Source: Maribacter cobaltidurans (lineage in GTDB: Bacteria; Bacteroidota; Bacteroidia; Flavobacteriales; Flavobacteriaceae). From it: 64,000 bases of DNA. Below are positions 6,068 to 20,104 of this stretch, in pieces. Position 1 is the first letter of the stretch; each line of letters begins with the position of its first letter. The notes under the pieces were generated by a model. The model was not told the origin of the DNA. It worked only from the letters and a program-made list of their open reading frames with translations, and did not search any database. The stretch covers positions 1 to 64,000 of the forward strand of contig NZ_CP022957.1 of the NCBI RefSeq assembly GCF_002269385.1, written 5' to 3'. Made by a program: the position numbers and the translations under genes.

Positions 6068-6712
6068 ATGAAAAAAGTACTATTGATATTGACACTTATA
6101 CTTTCTGCTAATGTGCTGCGTTCACAAACACCGGAAAAGGCAAAAGCACTTTTGGATGAAGTCTATAACAAAGTGAAAAGCTATGATAACATCTTTGTTG
6201 ATTTCAAGTTTGACCTCAAAAACGCCGAAGCAGGAATCAATCAAGAAACTCGTGGCGATGTCACTCTAGCTGGTGACAAATACGTTTTCAACTATTTAGG
6301 CTCCAAACAACTTTATGACGGCAACAAGGTGTATACCATCGTTCCAGAAAATGAAGAGGTAACCATAGAGGACCAATCCAATGACGAAGACGCCATGACG
6401 CCCTCTAAAATGTTGACTTTTTATAAGGAAGGTCACAACTATGAATGGGACATTCTTCAAAATGTACAGGGCAGAAAAATACAGTACGTAAAGCTTACTC
6501 CTATTGATTCCAATACCGAAATCAAATCCCGATTATTGGGTATTGATATGGGAACAAAGCATATCTATAGACTTATAGAGACAGGAAAGAACGGAACCAA
6601 AACCACCATTACTGTTAATTCTTTTAAAACAAATCAGCCGTTGTCATCCACCTTGTTTAAATTTGATGAGGCCAAATATAAGGATGAAGGATACTACATC
6701 TTAAGAAATTAG
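6068..6712 (+). CDS. LolA-family outer-membrane lipoprotein carrier protein
   Basis: Periplasmic protein of the LolA fold, expected to carry lipoproteins (or a lipid substrate) across the periplasm. It has a clear Sec signal peptide (MKKVLLILTLILSANVLRSQ, cleavage after about residue 20). The remaining sequence is the usual half-barrel pattern, with motifs such as YLGSKQLYDGNKVYTIVPE seen in Bacteroidetes LolA homologues. At 214 residues it matches family length. It lies 5 bases upstream of the LptF/LptG permease and downstream of ftsK, a common flavobacterial order. The lolA/lptFG pairing places it in outer-membrane biogenesis. A dedicated LolB partner is not seen here. Confidence 0.85.
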   Translation: MKKVLLILTLILSANVLRSQTPEKAKALLDEVYNKVKSYDNIFVDFKFDLKNAEAGINQETRGDVTLAGDKYVFNYLGSKQLYDGNKVYTIVPENEEVTIEDQSNDEDAMTPSKMLTFYKEGHNYEWDILQNVQGRKIQYVKLTPIDSNTEIKSRLLGIDMGTKHIYRLIETGKNGTKTTITVNSFKTNQPLSSTLFKFDEAKYKDEGYYILRN

Positions 6713-6717
6713 AACCA

Positions 6718-8229
6718 TTGAGAATATTAGACCGGTATATATTATCCAGGTTTACCTTTAATTTTATCAGTTCGTTTGTAATATTGATGTTTATCTTCAT
6801 TTTTCAAACGATCTGGCTTTTTATAGATGATTTGGCCGGTAAAGGTTTGGATATCATTATTATAGGTAAATTTCTTTTCTATCTTATGCCGGATCTTACT
6901 GAGAAAGTATTGCCCTTAACGGTTTTGCTTTCGTCGATTTTGACCTTTGGGGCCCTAGCGGAAAATTATGAATTTGCAGCGATGAAGGCATCGGGCATTT
7001 CTCTTCAAAGGGCCATGTTGAGCTTAATAGTTTTTGTAACCCTTTTGGGCGGGGTAACGTTCTTTTTTGCCAATTCCGTGATTCCATTATCTCAAAGAAA
7101 AATCTACAACCTTAGAAAAAACATTGCCAAGGTAAAACCTGCCGCCGTGGTGTCCGAAGGGGTTTTTAGCGATTTTGAGGGCATGAACATCAAAGTGGAT
7201 GAAAAATACGGGGATAACGATAGGTACTTGAGAAACGTAATCATACACCAAAAAAATGACCGAAACCAAAACAACGTTGTCATAAAATCCGAACAAGGGG
7301 AATTGGTAAGTAGTGAGGATTCGGATATAGTACAGCTAATACTTACAGACGGTCATTATTATGATGATATAGAATCCAAGAAAAACAAATTAAAATATCC
7401 CCATGCCAAGGCGGATTTCGACACCTATATCATGAACATAGAAATTCCCGAACTAAACAATGAGGACTTGGAGGAGGAAAGGGATATTAGTACGGATAAA
7501 ATGAAAAATATATCCCGTTTAAGAAAGGATATTGATTCCTTGAGGGATGATAATTATAGGATCGTCAGGGCGTTCTCTAAGAGCATTGGTAATAGAATAG
7601 GCATGTTCCAGCCCTTGGACCCCAACGATACGTTGGATAAAAAAACACCTCTGCAAATTACACAGGATTCTATACGGCAAATCAAGCTGGCCGCGCTTAA
7701 AAACAATCCTGCCAAACAGGATTCCATAAAAGAAGACCTCTTGCATTTATTCCCGTTTTACTTGAAAATGCAAGTGGTAAATGCAGCCAAAAATGCCACC
7801 ACCAATGTTCTAAATTCAGTTAGGGGGAAAAAAGAGGAAATGCAGAAACGGTATAAAATTTACAACATGCATATTCTTTCCATGCATAACAAATATGCCT
7901 TGGCATTTTCTTGCATTATCCTATTCTTTGTGGGTGCGCCCTTGGGTGCTATAATTAGGAAAGGAGGGCTTGGTCTTCCCATGGTAATTGCAATTGTATT
8001 ATTTTTGGTGTATTACTTTATTGGTGTATTTGCCGGCAATTATGCAAAGGAAGGCAATATCCACCCCATGTTGGGGGCTTGGTTATCCACCTTGATTATG
8101 TTGCCCCTAAGTATTATTTTGACAAAAAGGGCCACGGAGGATAAAGGTTTAATGAGTTTTGGGGTAGTAACGGATTTCTTCAGGAACCTGTTTAAGAAAA
8201 AAAAGAAAAATGGAGGTCAAGACATCTAA
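6718..8229 (+). CDS. LptF/LptG (YjgP/YjgQ) family LPS export permease
   Basis: Inner-membrane permease of the LPS export ABC transporter (LptB2FG), which extracts lipopolysaccharide and passes it to the periplasmic bridge. Residues 1-130 hold the first helices (ILDRYILSRFTFNF, then ILMFIFIFQTIWLF and further segments). A long periplasmic region of about 250 residues follows. The last 130 residues hold three more helices including GAPLGAIIRKGGLGLP, a family signature. At 503 residues it is longer than enterobacterial LptF or LptG because of the middle insert, as is usual in Bacteroidetes. The start is TTG at 6718, giving the conserved N-terminus 5 bases after lolA. The end overlaps ribB by 20 bases, so the three genes are probably one operon. 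Confidence 0.9.
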   Translation: MRILDRYILSRFTFNFISSFVILMFIFIFQTIWLFIDDLAGKGLDIIIIGKFLFYLMPDLTEKVLPLTVLLSSILTFGALAENYEFAAMKASGISLQRAMLSLIVFVTLLGGVTFFFANSVIPLSQRKIYNLRKNIAKVKPAAVVSEGVFSDFEGMNIKVDEKYGDNDRYLRNVIIHQKNDRNQNNVVIKSEQGELVSSEDSDIVQLILTDGHYYDDIESKKNKLKYPHAKADFDTYIMNIEIPELNNEDLEEERDISTDKMKNISRLRKDIDSLRDDNYRIVRAFSKSIGNRIGMFQPLDPNDTLDKKTPLQITQDSIRQIKLAALKNNPAKQDSIKEDLLHLFPFYLKMQVVNAAKNATTNVLNSVRGKKEEMQKRYKIYNMHILSMHNKYALAFSCIILFFVGAPLGAIIRKGGLGLPMVIAIVLFLVYYFIGVFAGNYAKEGNIHPMLGAWLSTLIMLPLSIILTKRATEDKGLMSFGVVTDFFRNLFKKKKKNGGQDI

Positions 8230-9361
8230 TCTTACGGATGAAATAAAGTTGAATACCATTGAGGAGGCCATAGAGGATATCCGTAATGGTAAGGTTATTA
8301 TCGTAGTTGACGATGAAAATAGGGAGAACGAAGGAGACTTTCTGGCGGCTGCAGAACTCGCCACTCCAGAGACCATAAACTTCATGGCCACCCACGGGCG
8401 AGGTTTAATCTGTGCGCCACTGACCGAAGGTAGATGCGAGCATCTTGGACTCCATCGTATGGTAAACAATAATACCGATCCACTGGAAACGGCATTTACG
8501 GTTTCCATTGATTTAAGGGGGCAAGGCGTTACAACCGGTATTTCCGCATCCGATAGGTCAAAAACTGTCTGTGCTTTGACCGATGACAATATAAAGCCCC
8601 ATGATTTTGCCAGACCAGGGCATATTTTCCCTTTGGTCGCTAAAGAAGGAGGTGTTCTCAGAAGAACCGGACATACGGAGGCGGCCATAGACTTTGCAAG
8701 ACTCGCCGGATTGAAGCCTGCCGGTGTTATCGTGGAAATCATGAATGAGGACGGCAGCATGGCAAGACTTCCCCAATTGATTGAGGTAGCAAAAAAGTTC
8801 GATTTAAAAATCGTATCCATAGAAGATTTGGTAGCGTACAGAATGGAACACGATAGTCTTATCCTCAAGGAGCTTGATTTTACCATTACCACCCGGTTCG
8901 GTGATTTTAGGTTAAGGGCCTACAAACAGACAACCAACAACCATATCCACATTGCCTTAACTAAAGGATCGTGGAGCCTTGGCGACAAAGTGCTGACCAG
9001 AATTAACTCTACCTTGGTCAATAATGATATTCTTGGCACCCTTACCAATAGCGTAGATTCCCAATTGGAAAACATGTTCAAAGCCATAAATAAAGAGGGA
9101 AAAGGAGCCATAGTCTTTATCAATCAGGATATGGAATCCTTAAATCTGTTGTCCAGACTCAAAGAACTAAGGGAACTTCAAGGTAGTGGCATTTACAAAG
9201 CGCCAAAAATAGAAATGGATGCCAAGGATTTTGGCATTGGGGCCCAAATTCTGCATGATTTGGATATTTCAAAACTTCGATTGCTCACCAACAACCAACA
9301 GACCAAGAGAGTGGGTATTGTGGGTTATGGTTTAGAAATAGTGGAATATGTAAGCTACTAA
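8210..9361 (+). CDS. ribB: 3,4-dihydroxy-2-butanone-4-phosphate synthase with degenerate GTP cyclohydrolase II domain
   Basis: Makes the four-carbon precursor of riboflavin from ribulose 5-phosphate. Residues 20-215 are a full RibB domain, with the acidic DDENRENEGD loop, the MATHGRGLICAPL motif and the RRTGHTEAA segment with catalytic histidine. Residues 225-383 align with GTP cyclohydrolase II at the end (DFGIGAQILHDLDISKLRLL, then GYGLEIVEYV). The zinc-binding cysteines and SLRCDCG-like core of active RibA are absent, replaced by NSTLVNNDILGTLTNS. The second domain is therefore probably not catalytic and a separate RibA should exist elsewhere. The gene overlaps the preceding permease by 20 bases and ends 2 bases from the convergent DegT gene. 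Confidence 0.9.
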   Translation: MEVKTSNLTDEIKLNTIEEAIEDIRNGKVIIVVDDENRENEGDFLAAAELATPETINFMATHGRGLICAPLTEGRCEHLGLHRMVNNNTDPLETAFTVSIDLRGQGVTTGISASDRSKTVCALTDDNIKPHDFARPGHIFPLVAKEGGVLRRTGHTEAAIDFARLAGLKPAGVIVEIMNEDGSMARLPQLIEVAKKFDLKIVSIEDLVAYRMEHDSLILKELDFTITTRFGDFRLRAYKQTTNNHIHIALTKGSWSLGDKVLTRINSTLVNNDILGTLTNSVDSQLENMFKAINKEGKGAIVFINQDMESLNLLSRLKELRELQGSGIYKAPKIEMDAKDFGIGAQILHDLDISKLRLLTNNQQTKRVGIVGYGLEIVEYVSY

Positions 9362-11584: not shown

Positions 11585-14500
11585 ATGCTTTCACATATTA
11601 TTAATTTCAGTATAAAGAACAAGTTTATAGTACTACTATTTACATGTTTTATCATAGGTTTCGGAATTTATTCCCTTACAAAAATTCCTATAGGTGCCGT
11701 ACCTGATGTAACAAATAATCAAGTACAAGTTATTACTACCTCAAGAAATCTTTCAACCCAGGATATTGAACAATTTATCACCTACCCTGTGGAGTTGGAA
11801 ATGGCGAATTTACCCGGTGTAAAGGAAATAAGGTCCGTTTCCAAATTTGGGCTTTCCGTGGTTACCATCGTTTTTGAGGACGATCTGGGTACTTATTTGC
11901 CAAGACAGTTAATCGCCGAAAAAATAAAATCGGCCTCGGAAAAAATTCCTTCCAGTTTTGGTTCTCCGGAAATGGGCCCCATTACTACCGGATTGGGTGA
12001 AATATACCAGTATATTCTTGATGTAGAGCCCGAATTCAAAGACCAATATACAGCAGAAGATCTAAGGACGATACAGGATTGGATCGTAAAAAGACAACTC
12101 TCTGGAATACCCGGTGTAGTTGAAGTAAATACTTGGGGCGGCTTTTTAAAACAGTATGAAGTGGCCATAAATACGGAGAAACTCAATGCCATGAACATTA
12201 GTTCCCAAGAGGTATTTAAGGCTGTGGAATCCAACAATAGCGTAGCCGGTGGCGGATATATCGAAAAGGTAAACCAAGCATTTTTTATTCGGGGCGAAGG
12301 TCTTGTCAGTTCCCTCAAGGATATAGAAAACATCATCGTTAAAAATGATGGTGAGGTTCCTATTTATATCAAGGATGTTGCCACGGTCGGTTTTGGAAAC
12401 GCCACCCGTTTTGGAGCCATTACCGGGAATGGTGAAGGTGAAAAAGTTTTGGGGCAGGTGATGATGCTAAAGGATGCCAATTCCAAAAAGGTCATCGAAG
12501 CGGTAAAGGAACGTGTTGCAAATATTTCAAAATCTTTGCCTGAAGGCGTATATATCAATGCCTTTCTAGATCGAAGTGAACTCATTGCCAAAACTACCTT
12601 TACGGTTACGGAAAACCTGATTTTGGGATGTTTGATCGTAATTTTTGTGGTCGTGCTACTGCTTGGAAATTTTCGTTCCGGTCTCGTGGTGGCCTCCGTT
12701 ATTCCCTTGTGCCTGCTTTTCGCCCTTTCGCTCATGTATATCTTTGGCGTGGATGCCAACTTGATGAGCTTGGGAGCGATTGATTTTGGGATCATTATTG
12801 ACGGTGCCGTGATCATCGTGGAGTTTATCGCCTTCAATGTATCCAAGAAACGCACTGAACTTGAAGGGCTGATCAAAAGCGAACAACAGGAGCTTAGGGA
12901 TGGAATAACCTATACCGGTGCCACCAAAATGATGAACTCCGCCATTTTTGGGCAGCTGATCATCCTAATCGTCTTCATTCCCATCCTATCCTTGAGTGGT
13001 GTTGAAGGTAAGATGTTCAAGCCAATGGCATTGACATTTAGCTTTGCCTTGATCGGTGCCATGATATTATGCTTTACCTATGTACCGGTAGTGTCCTCCC
13101 TATTTTTAAAACCCTCCAAGACCACGGATAAGAATATTTCCGTTCGCTTAATGAGTTGGTTGAACAAAAAGTACGACCCCATTATAGACTGGGCACTACG
13201 CAGTAAAAAATTGGTCCTAGGCATTGCAGCAGCGCTCTTAGCGATTGCCGTTTCCCTTTATATGTCCATGGGAGGAGAATTTGTACCCACTTTGGACGAG
13301 GGGGATTTTGTGATTCAACCCGTGCTAAAAACAGGTACTTCCCTCAGCAACACGGTCGAAATCACCACAGAGATAGAACGTATTCTACTGGACCAGTTTC
13401 CAGAGGTTAAACAAGTGGTTACAAGGATCGGTGCGGCAGAAGTTCCCACAGACCCCATGTCCATGGAGGAAAGTGATGTGATTATCGTACTAAATCCAAA
13501 AAGTGAATGGACCTCGGCGGAATCCAAGGACGAATTGGCCGATAAATTCAAAGAGGCCTTGTCTGTAATACCAGGTATGGAGGTTGAATTTACACAACCC
13601 ATTGAAATGCGTTTCAATGAACTGATTACGGGGGTTCGTGCCGATATTGCCATCAAGATATTTGGCGAAAACTTGGACATTCTTGCCAAAAAAGGAAAGG
13701 AAATAGGAGACCTGATTCAAAATGTCCCCGGTGCGGCCGATATTTCAGTAGAAAAAATAGCCGGACTTCCCGAGATGAACGTAAAATACAATCGGTCTAA
13801 AATTGCCCGATACGGTCTCAATATCCAAGACTTGAACGACATGATTTCCATGGGGTTTGCCGGTAAGACGGCAGGCAGCGTTTTTGAAGGCGAAAAGAGA
13901 TTCGATCTGGTCGTTAGGCTAGACAGTAAAAAACGGCAGGATATCGATAACCTAAAGAATCTATATGTTGACCTTCCTTCCGGAGGAAAAATTCCTTTGA
14001 GCGAATTAGCTGAAATCACCTACCAAAAAGGTGCGGCCAAAATATCAAGGGACGATACAAGAAGACGAATCGTTGTGGGTATCAACGTCCGTAACAGAGA
14101 TTTACAATCTGTTGTGGACGATGTACGAAAACTGATCGATGATAATGTAAAACTTCCCGTGGGCTATTCCATTACCTATGGGGGCCAGTTTGAAAATCTG
14201 CAAAGTGCCAAAGCAAGGTTGATGATTGCGGTACCTATTGCCTTGATCTTAATTTTCATTCTTCTATACTTTGCTTTCAAATCCGTAAAAGAAGCATTAA
14301 TGATTTATTCCGCCATTCCATTGGCAGCCGTTGGTGGCGTACTATTATTGTGGGTTAGAGGTTTGCCCTTTAGTATTTCTGCCGGGGTAGGTTTTATTGC
14401 CTTGTTTGGTATTGCCGTACTGAATGGAATCGTACTGATCGAACATTTTAAGGAATTGGAAGCATCGGGAAAATTTGAAGATATGAACGATTTGATCAAA

Positions 14501-15922
14501 GAAGGGGCCAAAGACAGGCTTAGGGCAGTTCTGCTGACTGCATCGGCCGCGGCCCTAGGTTTTCTTCCCATGGCCATTTCTACCAATGCAGGGGCGGAAG
14601 TACAACGTCCCCTGGCTACCGTTGTCATAGGCGGACTAATTACCGCGACCATTTTGACCTTAGTGGTGTTACCTGTTTTGTATTCCTACCTAAGCAGTCA
14701 TATAGAGAAAAAAAGTATGGGCCTTTCAAAACAGACCAATCTTATTATAGGTCTTTTGGTCCTTTTTGGGTCATTTCAAGTGAAAGCCCAAGAACCGCCC
14801 AAGAATTTGGAGGCATTGATACCCATGGCGATTGAAAACAATGCGGGTCTAAAGGTATATCAATTGGGTATGGAAGCATCCGATGCTTTTGTGAACAGTG
14901 CCTTTGATTTTGAAAAAACGGATGTGTACTACTCCTATGACGAAAATAATTTGGCGCTTAACAATTTGCCATTGAAAGTCTTTGGGGTCGCCCAAAGTTT
15001 CAGTTTTCCCACGGTTTATTTTTCAAAAAGAAGGGTGAACAAGGGGGTATACAATGTTGCTAAAAGCACATATGATATCCAAACAAAGAACTTGGAAAAA
15101 CAGGTAGTGTCCGGATACTATGAATATCAGGTCGCGCGGGAAATGGCCAATGTGCTTAACCTATTAGACAGTCTTTATGGCAACTTTTCCCAGATGGCCA
15201 ACAGACGTTTTGAACTGGGTGAGACCAATTATCTCGAAAAGATTACAGCAACCTCAAAGCAACGGCAAATCCAACTAAAATATGCTGAAGCGGAACGGAA
15301 TGTGGAAATCAGCTATCAGAATTTGATGAAGATTATCCAGTCCCAAGACAGCATTGTTATTGCCGAAGCATCCCAATTAAAGGTTCCTATGAAGGATGTT
15401 GCCATTGAATCGATTCCGGAAATCTCCTTTTATCAAAATCAAATCGATTTAAAACAGGCCCAGAAGAATCTGGAAAACCAACAATTGCTTCCTGATATTG
15501 GCGTGGAATATTTTCAAGGCACCAACGACGGACTCAGCGGGAACCTGCATGGTTACCAATTAGGTCTGAAGATTCCCTTGTTTTTTGGGGGGAAGGCCTC
15601 ACGGATAAAATCTGCCAAAATTGCCGAACAAAGTGCCGAGGCTGCTTATACGGATTATGAGATACAGCTTCATACAATATTAGCCACTTTAAAAAAGCAA
15701 CTTCACGTGCTTTCCAAATCCTTGGAATACTATGAAAATGAGGGAAGCCTTTTATCAGACGAAATTTTAAAAATGGCGAACGGTAGTTTTCAAAATGGGG
15801 AAATCGACTTTTATCAATACATACAAAGTCTGGAAAGCGCCTACGACGTAAAACTAGAATATCTAAATAAACTCAAAGAATATAATTCCACGGTAATTGC
15901 CATCAATTACTTAACCTTATAA
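11585..15922 (+). CDS. CusA/CzcA heavy-metal RND efflux pump fused to a TolC-family outer-membrane factor
   Basis: A 1445-residue fusion. Residues 1-1040 are a complete heavy-metal-efflux RND permease (IPIGAVPDVTNNQVQV near the N-terminus, the TM4 motif DFGIIIDGAVIIVE, large periplasmic loops and a repeated second half). After HIEKKSMGLSKQ, residues 1048-1062 form a hydrophobic segment ending VKAQE, which looks like a signal peptide. Residues 1065-1445 are a TolC-type outer-membrane efflux domain with long coiled helices (NLEALIPMAIENNAGLKV and ANRRFELGETNYLEKI). The pump exports Cu, Zn, Co or similar ions using proton motive force. The adaptor gene follows after 10 bases. Similar fusions are familiar in Bacteroidetes. 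Whether the chain is cleaved at the internal signal-like segment is unknown. Confidence 0.9.
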   Translation: MLSHIINFSIKNKFIVLLFTCFIIGFGIYSLTKIPIGAVPDVTNNQVQVITTSRNLSTQDIEQFITYPVELEMANLPGVKEIRSVSKFGLSVVTIVFEDDLGTYLPRQLIAEKIKSASEKIPSSFGSPEMGPITTGLGEIYQYILDVEPEFKDQYTAEDLRTIQDWIVKRQLSGIPGVVEVNTWGGFLKQYEVAINTEKLNAMNISSQEVFKAVESNNSVAGGGYIEKVNQAFFIRGEGLVSSLKDIENIIVKNDGEVPIYIKDVATVGFGNATRFGAITGNGEGEKVLGQVMMLKDANSKKVIEAVKERVANISKSLPEGVYINAFLDRSELIAKTTFTVTENLILGCLIVIFVVVLLLGNFRSGLVVASVIPLCLLFALSLMYIFGVDANLMSLGAIDFGIIIDGAVIIVEFIAFNVSKKRTELEGLIKSEQQELRDGITYTGATKMMNSAIFGQLIILIVFIPILSLSGVEGKMFKPMALTFSFALIGAMILCFTYVPVVSSLFLKPSKTTDKNISVRLMSWLNKKYDPIIDWALRSKKLVLGIAAALLAIAVSLYMSMGGEFVPTLDEGDFVIQPVLKTGTSLSNTVEITTEIERILLDQFPEVKQVVTRIGAAEVPTDPMSMEESDVIIVLNPKSEWTSAESKDELADKFKEALSVIPGMEVEFTQPIEMRFNELITGVRADIAIKIFGENLDILAKKGKEIGDLIQNVPGAADISVEKIAGLPEMNVKYNRSKIARYGLNIQDLNDMISMGFAGKTAGSVFEGEKRFDLVVRLDSKKRQDIDNLKNLYVDLPSGGKIPLSELAEITYQKGAAKISRDDTRRRIVVGINVRNRDLQSVVDDVRKLIDDNVKLPVGYSITYGGQFENLQSAKARLMIAVPIALILIFILLYFAFKSVKEALMIYSAIPLAAVGGVLLLWVRGLPFSISAGVGFIALFGIAVLNGIVLIEHFKELEASGKFEDMNDLIKEGAKDRLRAVLLTASAAALGFLPMAISTNAGAEVQRPLATVVIGGLITATILTLVVLPVLYSYLSSHIEKKSMGLSKQTNLIIGLLVLFGSFQVKAQEPPKNLEALIPMAIENNAGLKVYQLGMEASDAFVNSAFDFEKTDVYYSYDENNLALNNLPLKVFGVAQSFSFPTVYFSKRRVNKGVYNVAKSTYDIQTKNLEKQVVSGYYEYQVAREMANVLNLLDSLYGNFSQMANRRFELGETNYLEKITATSKQRQIQLKYAEAERNVEISYQNLMKIIQSQDSIVIAEASQLKVPMKDVAIESIPEISFYQNQIDLKQAQKNLENQQLLPDIGVEYFQGTNDGLSGNLHGYQLGLKIPLFFGGKASRIKSAKIAEQSAEAAYTDYEIQLHTILATLKKQLHVLSKSLEYYENEGSLLSDEILKMANGSFQNGEIDFYQYIQSLESAYDVKLEYLNKLKEYNSTVIAINYLTL

Positions 15923-15932
15923 ACATTAGACC

Positions 15933-17069
15933 ATGAAATCATATATATATTATTTTCTAACATTGGCGCTTCTAGCGGGCGTCACAGGATGTGGTGAAAA
16001 AAGCAGTACCAACGAAACTTCAGCAGCATCTGAAACATCCTCTTTTATAGAAGTAACCCAGGCACAATATGACCAACTTGGTATGGAAATGGGCCCTATA
16101 GAAGAAAAATCCTTTCCTATCAAGGTAAGTGTCAACGGTATGATAGACGTACCGCCAGAAAATAGGGCTGTAGTAACGGCGACCATGGGGGGATATATTA
16201 GAACGACTCCCTTTTTGATCGGAGACAAAGTGAGCAAGGGACAGACTTTGGTGACCTTGGAAAATCCGGAATTCGTGAACCTTCAACAACAGTATTTGGA
16301 GGTAAACGAGCAACTTACCTTTTTAAAGGCAGAGTATGAAAGACACAAAATTATGTCCGATGAAAATATTACCTCTCAAAAGAATTTTTTGAAATCGGAG
16401 AGTGATTATAAATCCGCCGTAGCCCGGCATACCGGCTTGGAAAAGCAATTGACCATGCTCAACATCTCACCGGAACAGGTGAAAAATGGCACCATTGTGT
16501 CTTCGGTTTCCATTAAAGCGCCTATTTCCGGCAGTGTTACCAAAGTAAATGTTTCCAGGGGCGCGTATGTTTCGCCGGCGTCCTCCATTATGGAAATCAT
16601 CAATAATGATCATGTGCATTTGGAACTATCAGTTTTTGAAAAGGATATCATGAAAGTGAAAAAAGGTCAAAGGATTACCTTTAAGATACCGGAAGCCTCC
16701 GGCGATATTTTTAATGCGGAAGTACATTTGGTAGGCACTTCCATTGATGAAAATAGAACTATCAAAGTACATGGGCATTTGGAGGATGAGGACAAGGAAA
16801 ATTTCCTAACTGGAATGTTCGTGGAAGCCCAGATCATTACAGATGATATCCAGGCAAGGGCTTTACCTAGCGAGGCAATCGTAACTATTGACGATACGGC
16901 CAATGTACTGGTTCTCGAAAAAAAGGAGGGGGATACATATTATTTTTCACAAAAAGAAGTTACCATAAAAGAAGAACATGACGGTTTTTCTATCCTACAG
17001 GAAACGGAAAGCTTTGCACCAAAATCACAATTTTTGACCAAAGGAACCTATAACCTGATCGGGGTGTAA
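15933..17069 (+). CDS. Efflux RND transporter periplasmic adaptor subunit (CusB/CzcB-like lipoprotein)
   Basis: Membrane-fusion protein linking the RND pump to the outer-membrane factor. The N-terminus is a lipoprotein signal peptide with lipobox GVTGC (Cys20), so the mature protein should be anchored in the membrane facing the periplasm. A barrel-sandwich half appears at MGGYIRTTPFLIGDKVSKGQ. A helical hairpin covers about residues 110-165, the second lipoyl-like half is SIKAPISGSVTKVNVSRG, and a beta-barrel follows. At 378 residues it is normal length. It begins 10 bases after the CusA-TolC fusion, so the pump is one transcription unit. No cytosine/His metal-binding extension is seen, so the metal cannot be named. 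Confidence 0.9.
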   Translation: MKSYIYYFLTLALLAGVTGCGEKSSTNETSAASETSSFIEVTQAQYDQLGMEMGPIEEKSFPIKVSVNGMIDVPPENRAVVTATMGGYIRTTPFLIGDKVSKGQTLVTLENPEFVNLQQQYLEVNEQLTFLKAEYERHKIMSDENITSQKNFLKSESDYKSAVARHTGLEKQLTMLNISPEQVKNGTIVSSVSIKAPISGSVTKVNVSRGAYVSPASSIMEIINNDHVHLELSVFEKDIMKVKKGQRITFKIPEASGDIFNAEVHLVGTSIDENRTIKVHGHLEDEDKENFLTGMFVEAQIITDDIQARALPSEAIVTIDDTANVLVLEKKEGDTYYFSQKEVTIKEEHDGFSILQETESFAPKSQFLTKGTYNLIGV

Positions 17070-17134
17070 TTTTTTAAGGTAGAAATTGAAAGTTTTTGGA
17101 ATAATTATTGACTAAGGCATAAACAAAAAGAGTA

Positions 17135-17578
17135 ATGAATAGTAAGATAAACTTGTTGTCCATAGTTTTCCTTTTGGGAATGGCCACCACATTTGCCCAA
17201 GAATGGCATAAAGATTTTAAGGAAGCACAGCAGATTGCAAAAAACGGGAATAAGCCGATTATCTTGGTTTTCCAAGGTTCGGATTGGTGCGCTCCTTGTA
17301 TTAAATTGGACCGGGAAGTTTGGAGCACGGAGGAATTTAAATCCTATGCCAAGGACCATTATGTCATGTTACAGGCAGACTTTCCCAGAAAGAAGCAGAA
17401 TGCCCTGCCGAAAGAACAAGCTGAGGCAAATGCCAAACTTGCTGAAAAATACAATAAAAACGGCATCTTTCCATTTGTGGTCGTTCTGGACGAACAGGGA
17501 AAGGTGAAGGGTGAGACCAGTTACAAAAAGATGAATCCCAAGGAATACATGCAGCTTTTGGATTCCTTTACCGAATAA
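17135..17578 (+). CDS. Exported thioredoxin-family protein
   Basis: A 147-residue thioredoxin-fold protein with signal peptide (MNSKINLLSIVFLLGMATTF, cleaved near AQE). The redox motif is WCAPC (Cys52 and Cys55), and a cis-Pro-like loop lies at GIFPFVVVLD. This is the DsbD-gamma / thioredoxin_7 type of periplasmic thiol reductase. It precedes apbE by one base and is the first gene of the ApbE / DUF4266 / DUF3570 cluster. Its likely job is to keep cysteines of a partner reduced, perhaps those of the neighbouring Cys-tailed lipoprotein. That role is inferred from context only. Confidence 0.85.
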   Translation: MNSKINLLSIVFLLGMATTFAQEWHKDFKEAQQIAKNGNKPIILVFQGSDWCAPCIKLDREVWSTEEFKSYAKDHYVMLQADFPRKKQNALPKEQAEANAKLAEKYNKNGIFPFVVVLDEQGKVKGETSYKKMNPKEYMQLLDSFTE

Positions 17579-17579
17579 T

Positions 17580-18560
17580 TTGAAGAAGTACATATTCATA
17601 GGGGCCTTGATGATGTCCACCGTGATTTTTTCACAGCGGAACTATCAACGCACCCTTAAATTGATGGGAAGTAGGTTTGACCTTACGGTCGTTGCTAATG
17701 ATTCCACCACTGCGAATACCTATATGGATTTGGCAGTCGATGAGATTACCCGCATCGAAAAGCTGATATCTTCCTGGGACCCTAATTCCAGAACATCGGA
17801 AATAAACAAAAATGCAGGTATCAAACCTGTAAAGGTGGAATCTGAGTTGTATGAATTGATCAAAAGGGCCATCGGTATATCCAAATTAACGGATGGCGCC
17901 TTTGATATCAGTTATGCCTCTATGGACCGCATCTGGAAATTCGATGGAAGTATGAAAACAATGCCTTCCGAAGAGGAATTAAAATCCTCCGTTGCCAAGG
18001 TGGGTTTTCAGAATATTGTTCTAGATCCGGTGGAGCAAACCGTTTTTCTAAAACTTCCCGGAATGAAAATAGGTTTTGGGGCCATAGGTAAGGGGTATGC
18101 CGCGGATAAAGCGAAACAACTGTTGATGGATAAAGGGGTTCCCGCAGGGATTATAAATGCCTCAGGGGATATGAATACCTGGGGGAAACAAACCAATGGA
18201 GAATCCTGGAAGGTTGCCATTACCAATCCCATGAATAAAAACAAGGTCTTTGCTTTGTTGCCCATTACAGACGGTGCCGTGGTTACCTCCGGAGACTATG
18301 AACGCTATGTTACCTTTAACGGCAAACGCTATGCCCATATCATCGATCCCAGAACGGGTTATCCATCAACGGGAATCATAAGCGTAACCGTTTTTGCGCC
18401 CAAAGCGGAATTGGCAGATGCCTTGGCCACCTCCGTTTTTGTTATGGGAAAGGAGATTGGATTGGATAGAATCAATCAACTACCCAAAGTGGAATGTATC
18501 ATCATCGATGAAAAAGGAAACATTTCAAAATCCGATAATATTGAAATAGACAAACTATGA
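17580..18560 (+). CDS. apbE: FAD:protein FMN transferase (ApbE family)
   Basis: Attaches FMN from FAD covalently to a Thr or Ser of an exported target protein. It is 326 residues with a short signal-like N-terminus (MKKYIFIGALMMSTVIFSQ) and starts at TTG 17580, one base after the thioredoxin stop. Family landmarks are LMGSRFDLTV, SSWDPNSRTSEINKNAG, IGFGAIGKGYAADKAK, INASGDMNTWG and HIIDPRTGYPS near the FAD and metal sites. The ATG of the DUF4266 gene overlaps its stop by four bases. No classic target such as NqrC or RnfG is adjacent, so the substrate is likely encoded in this cluster or elsewhere. The DUF3570 protein contains a partial SGAS site. Confidence 0.93.
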   Translation: MKKYIFIGALMMSTVIFSQRNYQRTLKLMGSRFDLTVVANDSTTANTYMDLAVDEITRIEKLISSWDPNSRTSEINKNAGIKPVKVESELYELIKRAIGISKLTDGAFDISYASMDRIWKFDGSMKTMPSEEELKSSVAKVGFQNIVLDPVEQTVFLKLPGMKIGFGAIGKGYAADKAKQLLMDKGVPAGIINASGDMNTWGKQTNGESWKVAITNPMNKNKVFALLPITDGAVVTSGDYERYVTFNGKRYAHIIDPRTGYPSTGIISVTVFAPKAELADALATSVFVMGKEIGLDRINQLPKVECIIIDEKGNISKSDNIEIDKL

Positions 18561-18769
18561 TAAAAAGATTGCTAGTATTGGCCATCATGGCCATTTCCTT
18601 TGGCAGCTGTACGGTGCTTAAGGAGTACGAGAAGGTAAACATCAACGACCCGGATATGATCTTGGCCGAAAAACCTTGTGACCGAAACGTCACGACCATG
18701 CATTCCTACCGGGAAGCCGCCGCCGGCGCCAACGGCGGAAAAACCGGCGGAGGCTGTGGCTGCAACTAA
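18557..18769 (+). CDS. DUF4266 small lipoprotein with conserved Gly/Cys tail
   Basis: A 70-residue predicted lipoprotein. The signal peptide ends in lipobox SFGSC (Cys18), leaving about 53 mature residues. The tail is strikingly conserved in this family: AAAGANGGKTGGGCGCN, with Cys67 and Cys69 in a C-x-C at the extreme C-terminus, plus Cys41. The gene overlaps apbE by four bases (ATGA) and is followed 24 bases later by the DUF3570 gene. The function is unknown. A Gly-rich CxC tail on a lipoprotein beside a thioredoxin and an FMN transferase suggests metal binding, a redox thiol pair or a site of modification. Confidence 0.9.
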   Translation: MIKRLLVLAIMAISFGSCTVLKEYEKVNINDPDMILAEKPCDRNVTTMHSYREAAAGANGGKTGGGCGCN

Positions 18770-18793
18770 CCTATTGAAAATAAGCACTTGTCC

Positions 18794-20104
18794 ATGACAT
18801 TTTTTAGAAACTATTTTGTCCTATTCTTGGGATTACTCGGAAGTATCGCTTTTGCCCAAGACGACCAAAACGATACCCAATATAAAAAAAGAGTATTGGA
18901 AACAACGGAGGTAGACTTCCTTACCAGCTACTACTCACAAGATGGCGACAACGCTGCCGTAAGTGGGGGTATCGGTACAGAAAAACTTACGGATGCCACG
19001 GGAACTTTTGTGGTATCCATTCCTTTAAACGATGATGATGTACTCACCATAGATGCAGGGGTTTCTGCGTATACATCGGCATCGTCCAGTAACATAAATC
19101 CATTTGACGGAGGTCGGCGTGCGGATCCATTCGTGGCAAGTTCCGGTGCCTCAAGTGGGGACACATGGGTAAATCTTACGGGGTCCTATACACATAGTTC
19201 TGATGATCGTAACAACATCGTTTCAGGGAAACTTTCGGTTTCCTCGGAATATGATTATTTCTCATTGGGATTCGGCGGAAGCTATTCTAGACTTTTTAAC
19301 GAAAAGAACACGGAAGTAAGCGTAAAGGCCAATGTATACCTTGATTCCTGGAATACCATTTATCCCTATGAATTAAGGGCTTTTGGAGCCAATGGCATTG
19401 GCTTCTTTAGACCTACGGAGATTACGGGTAATGTCAACTACAATCCCAATTTTACCGAATTTGACAAGACAAATAGAAATTCCTATTCTTTAGGGCTGGG
19501 CTTTTCGCAAATCCTACATAGGAACCTCCAAGGCTCATTGGCCTTTGATGTGATTCAACAGCAGGGCTTATTGTCCACCCCGTTCCAGCGGGTCTATTTT
19601 AGCGATGTGGCCGATTCCTTTATAGAAGATTTTCAGTTGGCCGACGATGTGGAAAGACTTCCCGATAGCCGTACCAAAATTGCTTTGGGCGGAAGATTGA
19701 ACTGGTTCGTAAACGAATTGATAACGGTGCGCACGTTTTACCGATACTATTTTGACGATTGGGGTATCAATTCCCACACGGCCAGCGTAGAGGTTCCCAT
19801 AAAGATTTCGGATAAATTCACCCTTTACCCGTCCTATCGTTTTTACAATCAAACGGCAGCCGATTATTTTGGAGGCTATGAAACCCATCTATCGACCCTG
19901 GAATTTTATACTTCGGATTATGATCTGTCTGAATACAACGCAAACCAACTGGGCTTTGGGGCTTCGTACACCGACATTTTTACCCAACTGAACATTTGGG
20001 AATTTGGTTTAAAGAGTATCGACCTGAAATTTTATAAGTACGACCGGGATACAACCTTTAGCTCCAGCATCATAACAGCTGGATTTAAGTTTGTTATGGA
20101 TTAA
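18794..20104 (+). CDS. DUF3570 predicted outer-membrane beta-barrel protein
   Basis: A 436-residue exported protein with signal peptide (MTFFRNYFVLFLGLLGSIAFAQ). Alternating aromatic strands throughout and a C-terminal aromatic strand (SSSIITAGFKFVMD) indicate an outer-membrane barrel. The ATG at 18794 is preferred over TTG 18788. In the early part, residues 111-121 read DPFVASSGASS; the SGAS at 117-120 resembles the [ST]GA[ST] core of FMN-attachment sites, but lacks the aspartate at the usual distance. This protein, DUF4266, ApbE and the thioredoxin form one cluster (17135-20104). It has no known function. An outer-membrane flavoprotein or a channel working with the lipoprotein is possible. 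Confidence 0.88.
   Translation: MTFFRNYFVLFLGLLGSIAFAQDDQNDTQYKKRVLETTEVDFLTSYYSQDGDNAAVSGGIGTEKLTDATGTFVVSIPLNDDDVLTIDAGVSAYTSASSSNINPFDGGRRADPFVASSGASSGDTWVNLTGSYTHSSDDRNNIVSGKLSVSSEYDYFSLGFGGSYSRLFNEKNTEVSVKANVYLDSWNTIYPYELRAFGANGIGFFRPTEITGNVNYNPNFTEFDKTNRNSYSLGLGFSQILHRNLQGSLAFDVIQQQGLLSTPFQRVYFSDVADSFIEDFQLADDVERLPDSRTKIALGGRLNWFVNELITVRTFYRYYFDDWGINSHTASVEVPIKISDKFTLYPSYRFYNQTAADYFGGYETHLSTLEFYTSDYDLSEYNANQLGFGASYTDIFTQLNIWEFGLKSIDLKFYKYDRDTTFSSSIITAGFKFVMD

Follow-up and report, generated by a model that had tools for sequence, protein, structure and literature searches.

The four-gene cluster

Within the window, a 64,000-nucleotide stretch of the Maribacter cobaltidurans genome (assembly GCF_002269385.1, contig NZ_CP022957.1, positions 1 to 64,000 of the forward strand), a compact cluster of four genes was found to encode an exported thioredoxin-like protein, an ApbE flavin transferase, a small DUF4266 lipoprotein, and a DUF3570 protein predicted to form a barrel. 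Clusters of these four families were described in the main text of Meheust et al. (eLife 2021, PMC8238504), and the one in the window has the composition of that type, with an export signal on ApbE and a C-terminal CxC in the DUF4266 protein. Its features, including two candidate acceptor sites for flavin mononucleotide (FMN), are as follows:

17135..17578, + strand: exported thioredoxin-like protein, 147 residues; signal peptide; PF13899 (Thioredoxin_7) 2e-15; active site W51-C52-A-P-C55
17580..18560, + strand: ApbE, flavin adenine dinucleotide (FAD):protein FMN transferase, 326 residues; TTG start; PF02424 5.4e-86
18557..18769, + strand: DUF4266 small lipoprotein, 70 residues; PF14086 7.3e-17; C-terminal C67-G68-C69-N70
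18755..18763, + strand: codons for CGC in the tail of the DUF4266 lipoprotein, read from the sequence
18794..20104, + strand: DUF3570 protein, predicted 16-strand barrel of outer membrane type, 436 residues; PF12094 3.4e-39
19073..19084, + strand: candidate acceptor site 1, T94-S95-A96-S97; variant of [ST]GA[ST] in which Ser takes the place of Gly; this clade also has Ser instead of the Asp at -3
19142..19153, + strand: candidate acceptor site 2, S117-G118-A119-S120; canonical [ST]GA[ST] within DPFVASSGASS (residues 111 to 121)

The thioredoxin and ApbE genes are separated by 1 base and the DUF4266 and DUF3570 genes by 24, while ApbE and DUF4266 overlap by 4 bases, taking the ATG at 18794 as the start of DUF3570. 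This start is the most likely one, as the resulting 436 residues equal the length of the closest database relatives, the closest named of which are from Maribacter; a TTG 6 bases upstream would give 438 residues. Residue numbers refer to the 436-residue form, and the numbering of the AlphaFold2 model (438 residues) runs two higher. An earlier note, made from the sequence alone, had listed these four genes with the same coordinates and spacing, and every open reading frame (ORF) and Pfam match was confirmed, as were DPFVASSGASS and the lipoprotein end GGGCGCN. The cluster also lacks a target of the NqrC/RnfG type, as the note had said. The single FMN_bind match in the genome lies at 3133344, approximately 3.3 kb from another ApbE gene at 3136953. 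A riboflavin synthesis gene (DHBP synthase/GTP cyclohydrolase II) at 8210 to 9361 of the window, about 8 kb upstream, is probably a coincidence.

Candidate FMN acceptor sites on the DUF3570 barrel

In Chlorobium luteolum, DUF3570 was flavinylated by its cognate ApbE at two Ser sites, and the modification was lost only when both were replaced (PMC8238504, main text). Passages of PMC12052999 give the ApbE target motif as D-x-x-[ST]-G-A-[ST], with approximately 50% flavinylation after a Gly-to-Ala exchange and a minor effect of Asp-to-Ala. In an alignment of 149 barrels, two site positions were located in the loop that joins strands 3 and 4. Conservation was counted among 121 Bacteroidia barrels (119 distinct), 38 from a first set of 43 loci and 83 from 80 named loci. 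The first set consisted of the window and L036 to L077, five of which (L073 to L077) were not of Bacteroidia type; the named loci were the best 80 of at least 590 confirmed and were found through the barrel. Two pairs of contigs were identical (L036/L154 and L054/L141). The 60 genome stretches were selected by hand among the matches listed, two of them from the window's own genome. No DUF3570 match was shorter than 350 residues, and none was dropped.

Site 1 read [TSA]-S-A-S, with the Ala and the acceptor Ser present in 121/121 barrels and an Asp at -3 relative to the motif in 108; its second position was Ser in 120 and Gly in none. In the site 2 columns, where the rows of L061 and of the second copy in L174 are misaligned, the acceptor Ser was present in 119 and the Ala in 116, with Ser (100) or Gly (17) most often in the second position. 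Read by eye, site 2 was [ST]GAS in 18 of the 121, and the acceptor Ser was present in 120. The deviants were GGAK in L062, where the acceptor Ser is gone, TNAS in L177, and STPS in L058. The earlier note had pointed to the SGAS at residues 117 to 120 and had made its conservation a check on flavinylation: the outcome was mixed, with the acceptor Ser kept at both sites but the Gly mostly not, and SGAS was therefore rejected as a strictly conserved motif, being the exception among Bacteroidia. The note was correct that the Asp is not at its usual place before SGAS, and it had overlooked the second aligned site, TSAS at residues 94 to 97. The window barrel thus has one canonical and one variant site rather than the two canonical [ST]GA[ST] sites reported for DUF3570 proteins associated with ApbE.

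Site 1 aligned with D-x-x-[ST]-[GSA]-A-S of distant relatives. Barrels from loci L073 to L094, which we take to be of Chlorobi type (L075 and L077 belong to another family, f19), mostly carried D-x-[VLI]-[ST]-G-A-S at least once, in the same loop or the preceding one. The Chloroherpeton-like barrel of L073 has D-x-x-S-[AS]-A-S, linking the Gly-type and Ser-type forms of the site. From these sequences we infer that ApbE in these bacteria may accept Ser in place of the motif Gly. The C. luteolum experiment, carried over to this homologue, and the near-invariant acceptor Ser support the predicted flavinylation of the window barrel, so that the earlier proposal of a flavinylated barrel was right in kind, though already published (PMC8238504).

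ApbE, thioredoxin, and the DUF4266 lipoprotein

The ApbE signal peptide, judged by eye from the sequence, has no lipobox Cys. The best solved relative of the enzyme was 1vrm (expect value [E], 9.7e-48), followed by 7esa, an FMN transferase. Among 132 relatives (134 matches less 2 under 250 residues), S237 was kept in 129 and H253 in 131; because both are near-invariant, the window ApbE looks functional. A strict regular expression for the His motif matched 24 of the 132, although the aligned column was His in 131. A further ApbE gene of the same genome, at 554354 (L095, 8992 to 9990), has no recognized target alongside, and the near-invariant catalytic His is replaced by Asp (DVIDP for HIIDP).

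The WC.PC active site was present in 37/39 and 77/79 thioredoxin matches of the two locus sets. Of the four matches that lacked it, those in L045 and L158 were truncated pieces, that in L096 was a DsbD, and that in L160 was a full-length protein.

In the lipoprotein, C18 was identified by eye as the candidate lipidated residue, and the C-terminal tail GGC-G-C was kept in 138/138 DUF4266 matches, the window included, which, like those of DUF3570, were collected by similarity, a route that favors conserved ends. No [ST]GA[ST]-like site was found in the sequence of the lipoprotein, and its flavinylation, the other possibility raised in the earlier note, was rejected. Since mature barrels are nearly all free of Cys (114/121, and the window barrel as well), the CGC is unlikely to form a disulfide with the barrel. 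Electron transfer to the flavins or metal binding would remain as its roles. It is plausible that the thioredoxin keeps the CxC reduced, a putative role close to the published proposal that the DUF4266 CxC may cycle, with DsbD as the electron source in some bacteria (PMC8238504, main text).

Predicted structure of the DUF3570 barrel

The AlphaFold2 model of the barrel (mean predicted local distance difference test [pLDDT], 79.9; predicted template modeling score [pTM], 0.75) has 16 strands and matched outer membrane barrels. The 16 long strands were common to both predicted barrel models, and an amphipathic-strand profile agreed only roughly with the later barrel model. As in outer membrane barrels, a signal peptide is present, the strand number is even, and the termini lie on the short-turn side. 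Loop residues numbered 153 on the side opposite the termini and 42 on the other in model 1, and 108 and 36, respectively, in model 2 (hand count). Both acceptor sites fall within one long loop, residues 96 to 124 in the 438-residue numbering, on the predicted extracellular side. Residues that were near-invariant (at least 97% of the 121 barrels) were concentrated in the outer half and loops (40/251) relative to the inner half and turns (9/147; Fisher P = 0.004). The models suggest that DUF3570 is a barrel of outer membrane type whose flavins would lie at the extracellular mouth. When the barrel alignment was searched against the sequences of solved structures, one match only was returned, with an E of 0.11. 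Heme in the barrel was rejected, the window protein having no Cys.

Recurrence and gene order

Among 296 Bacteroidota genomes, DUF3570 was detected in 86 and DUF4266 in 83. All 83 lay among the 86 when the lists were compared by eye, so the cluster is not a chance arrangement; no genome had DUF4266 alone, and the three with DUF3570 alone (G213, G225, and G276) were assemblies of about 50 to 290 contigs. The 80 named loci contained DUF4266 in 79, ApbE in 78, and the thioredoxin in 77. The exact order thioredoxin-ApbE-DUF4266-DUF3570, whose recurrence the earlier note had expected, was found in 75; the others were L109, L110, L118, L146, and L167, some of them on short contigs. In 14 of the 22 loci L073 to L094, a DsbD-type gene followed ApbE, matching the published pattern.

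A second set in the window's own genome, at approximately 622974 to 625140 (L055, 8975 to 11141), comprises thioredoxin, DUF4266, and DUF3570 genes and no adjoining ApbE. The barrel of this set carries TSAS, LSGAS, and STGAS, and a sulfatase-domain gene comes after the set. Beside the DUF3570 genes of L086, an ORF with Big_5 immunoglobulin-like repeats (6417 to 7730) has DFISGAS near its start and is, judging by that motif, a possible further FMN target; similar ORFs occur in L079, L088 to L090, and L093, all of Chlorobi type. Another ORF, at 474 to 1757 of L092, has one CxxCH near its N terminus followed by a long remainder, gave no Pfam match, and lies near cytochrome genes. It is reminiscent of fused cytochrome-porins, and ORFs that cluster with it were also found in L079, L090, L093, and L094.

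Proposed function

On balance, the cluster probably encodes an outer membrane redox device based on flavin, in which a thiol relay of the thioredoxin and the CGC lipoprotein feeds covalent FMN on the DUF3570 barrel. ApbE would act in the periplasm, attaching FMN by phosphoester bonds to Ser97 and Ser120 before the barrel is inserted, and both flavins would end up on a single flexible loop where the 16-strand barrel opens to the outside. A DsbD-type membrane protein, whose gene lies elsewhere in the genome, would supply the exported thioredoxin with electrons, and the thioredoxin would in turn reduce the C-terminal CGC of the lipoprotein, whose Gly-rich tail could extend from the periplasm into the barrel and pass electrons to the flavins. 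The electron acceptor would be outside or in the barrel mouth, with ferric iron or another metal as the best guess. Here we infer that the window protein is flavinylated, in what order the carriers act and which way electrons flow, what accepts them, which side of the membrane is involved, and how far the tail reaches. The envelope redox or metal system envisaged in the earlier note was partly supported overall.

Several observations weigh against this scheme. Site 1 of the window barrel has neither the canonical Gly nor the canonical Asp and, given the approximately 50% flavinylation of the Gly-to-Ala variant in PMC12052999, may be modified more weakly. The scheme requires modification before insertion, because the outer face of an inserted barrel would be out of reach for ApbE in the periplasm. 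The third catalytic position of ApbE, D280, was kept in 116 of the 132 relatives and was Gly in 15. The pLDDT fell below 50 at residues 98 to 103 and 120 to 122, within the flavin loop, as well as at 23 to 35 and 201 to 203; the loop is among the worst-modeled stretches, and the geometry of the flavins therefore cannot be read from the model. Finally, no DsbD gene lies in the neighborhood of the cluster: the sole DsbD_TM match, which lies at 4631575 in the genome, is about 25 kb away if the 4.64-Mb contig is circular, and none was within five genes, the distance that defines the published DsbD subclass.

Neighboring genes and alternative explanations

Two genes for metal transport lie directly upstream of the cluster, and both may belong to the same system:

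11585..15922, + strand: CzcA/CusA-type resistance-nodulation-division (RND) permease and TolC/OEP domain joined in a single protein of 1445 residues; TIGR00914 1175 bits, OEP 3.2e-26
15933..17069, + strand: RND periplasmic adaptor (CusB/CzcB-like); PF16576 3.5e-34

Between the adaptor and thioredoxin genes lie 65 bases (17070 to 17134), in which the consensus scan found no terminator-like site; overall, such scans returned 13 promoter-like sites versus 10.6 expected and 12 terminator-like sites versus 4.6 expected. The permease has the motif DFGIIIDGA, and the permeases of other loci have DFGxxxDGA wherever readable, which we take to be the signature of the divalent-metal type. The fusion is hardly a frameshift artifact, since ORFs of 1444 to 1469 residues with the same permease were present in many loci. 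Residues ~1045 to 1072 read like a signal peptide of the TolC part, and a signal peptidase cut there is possible. In L049, the permease, adaptor, VIT1, one unassigned ORF, thioredoxin, ApbE, DUF4266, and DUF3570 genes follow one another on one strand; the window shows this arrangement without VIT1 and the extra ORF.

Given these neighbors, we lean toward a system that serves metal chemistry. One alternative is a role in metal export rather than import. There, VIT1 would move Fe2+/Mn2+ from the cytosol to the periplasm and CzcA-CzcB-TolC would carry divalent metal onward out of the cell, with the barrel keeping the metal in an exportable oxidation state or oxidizing it at the surface. This explanation has an appreciable chance of being correct, if well short of an even one. 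VIT1 was found in 14/43 first-set and 27/80 named loci, with a copy on the cluster strand in 26, compared with approximately 0.6 of 80 under random placement at 2 per 4.64 Mb; the CusA-like permease was found in 15/43 and 17/80, respectively. MbfA, which has a VIT1-like membrane domain, is listed under iron efflux in part of PMC7762939. However, the neighboring loci, drawn from related genera, cannot be counted as independent, VIT1 was missing from 53/80 and CusA from 63/80 in the fetched stretches, some of which were short, and the two VIT1 genes of the window's own genome (1142052 and 2626499) are unlinked to the cluster. Meheust et al. interpreted the VIT1 link as possible iron assimilation, on the basis of 25 VIT1-containing clusters (PMC8238504, main text).

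Iron assimilation, the explanation closest to that published view, would have the barrel reduce Fe(III) at the surface and admit Fe(II) through its pore, and is considered rather doubtful. Cytochrome b561 (5/43 first-set and 11/80 named loci) and a Rieske protein (9/43 and 6/80) could supply the electrons. To our knowledge, however, the characterized VIT-type proteins export iron from the cytosol. The listing of MbfA under efflux (PMC7762939, in part) argues the same way, and no iron importer was seen among the annotated recurrent neighbor families, most families being unannotated and no search for Feo having been made.

An unlikely third explanation is thiol handling, in which the FMN barrel and the CGC lipoprotein would oxidize or reduce disulfides or sulfur species in the envelope or outside, without direct metal chemistry. 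Thioredoxin and CGC are thiol carriers, and DUF3570 genes are repeated in the loci of the Chlorobi type, apparently green sulfur bacteria (four in L086), but the barrels are almost free of Cys and the Bacteroidia loci have metal-transport neighbors. Very improbably, the flavin site has decayed in Bacteroidia and the barrel is an ordinary porin in an operon retained by history: the motif Gly is absent from site 1 in 121/121 barrels and from the site 2 columns in 104/121, and L062 has lost the site 2 Ser, yet the acceptor Ser and the preceding Ala are among the best-kept residues and the adjoining ApbE has its catalytic Ser and His.

Comparison with known systems

Although published in 2021, this type of cluster still has an uncertain function; a proposal combining flavins at the outer face, tight pairing with a CGC lipoprotein, and a relaxed site was not found in the papers searched. 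No paper other than PMC8238504 was found that names DUF3570, DUF4266, PF12094, or PF14086. The main text of that article does not use the words "barrel," "porin," or "lipoprotein" and has "outer membrane" once, for siderophore transporters; no statement that an outer membrane barrel carries flavin was found in the literature searched. If the flavins do sit at the outer mouth, the flavin-based device proposed here would provide a heme-free route for electrons to or from the cell surface, and the DUF4266 partner would offer a handle on how electrons enter the barrel.

The porin-cytochrome conduits MtrAB and Cyc2 associate redox cofactors with an outer membrane barrel, and in Cyc2 the barrel protein itself bears a c-type heme motif. 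The window system would work alike in placing redox cofactors at such a barrel. It differs in that the cofactor would be covalent flavin, in that DUF3570 belongs to neither family, and in that the Cys-free window barrel cannot hold the heme motif of Cyc2. As a tentative generalization, possible but less than probable, DUF3570 may be a heme-free counterpart of the porin-cytochromes that is widespread in Bacteroidota, a porin-like outer membrane conduit for electrons that bears two covalent FMN groups at the outer mouth, is fed from the periplasmic side by the CGC of its almost invariably paired lipoprotein, and is flavinylated at a relaxed D-x-x-[ST]-S-A-S target.

The FMN_bind (NqrC/RnfG type), NqrB/RnfD, and DUF2271 substrates of ApbE share the FMN transferase chemistry and a similar short motif. 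Those substrates are small soluble domains or inner membrane proteins (PMC11334425, in part), whereas DUF3570 is predicted to be a barrel of outer membrane type. The closest likeness is to the clusters in the main text of Meheust et al. (PMC8238504), with the same four exported, adjacent families, FMN sites on DUF3570, and a CxC-tailed DUF4266, and the window cluster belongs with the 316 reported there without a neighboring DsbD. It is set apart from them by its combination of SGAS and TSAS and by the CzcA-TolC pump and adaptor directly upstream.

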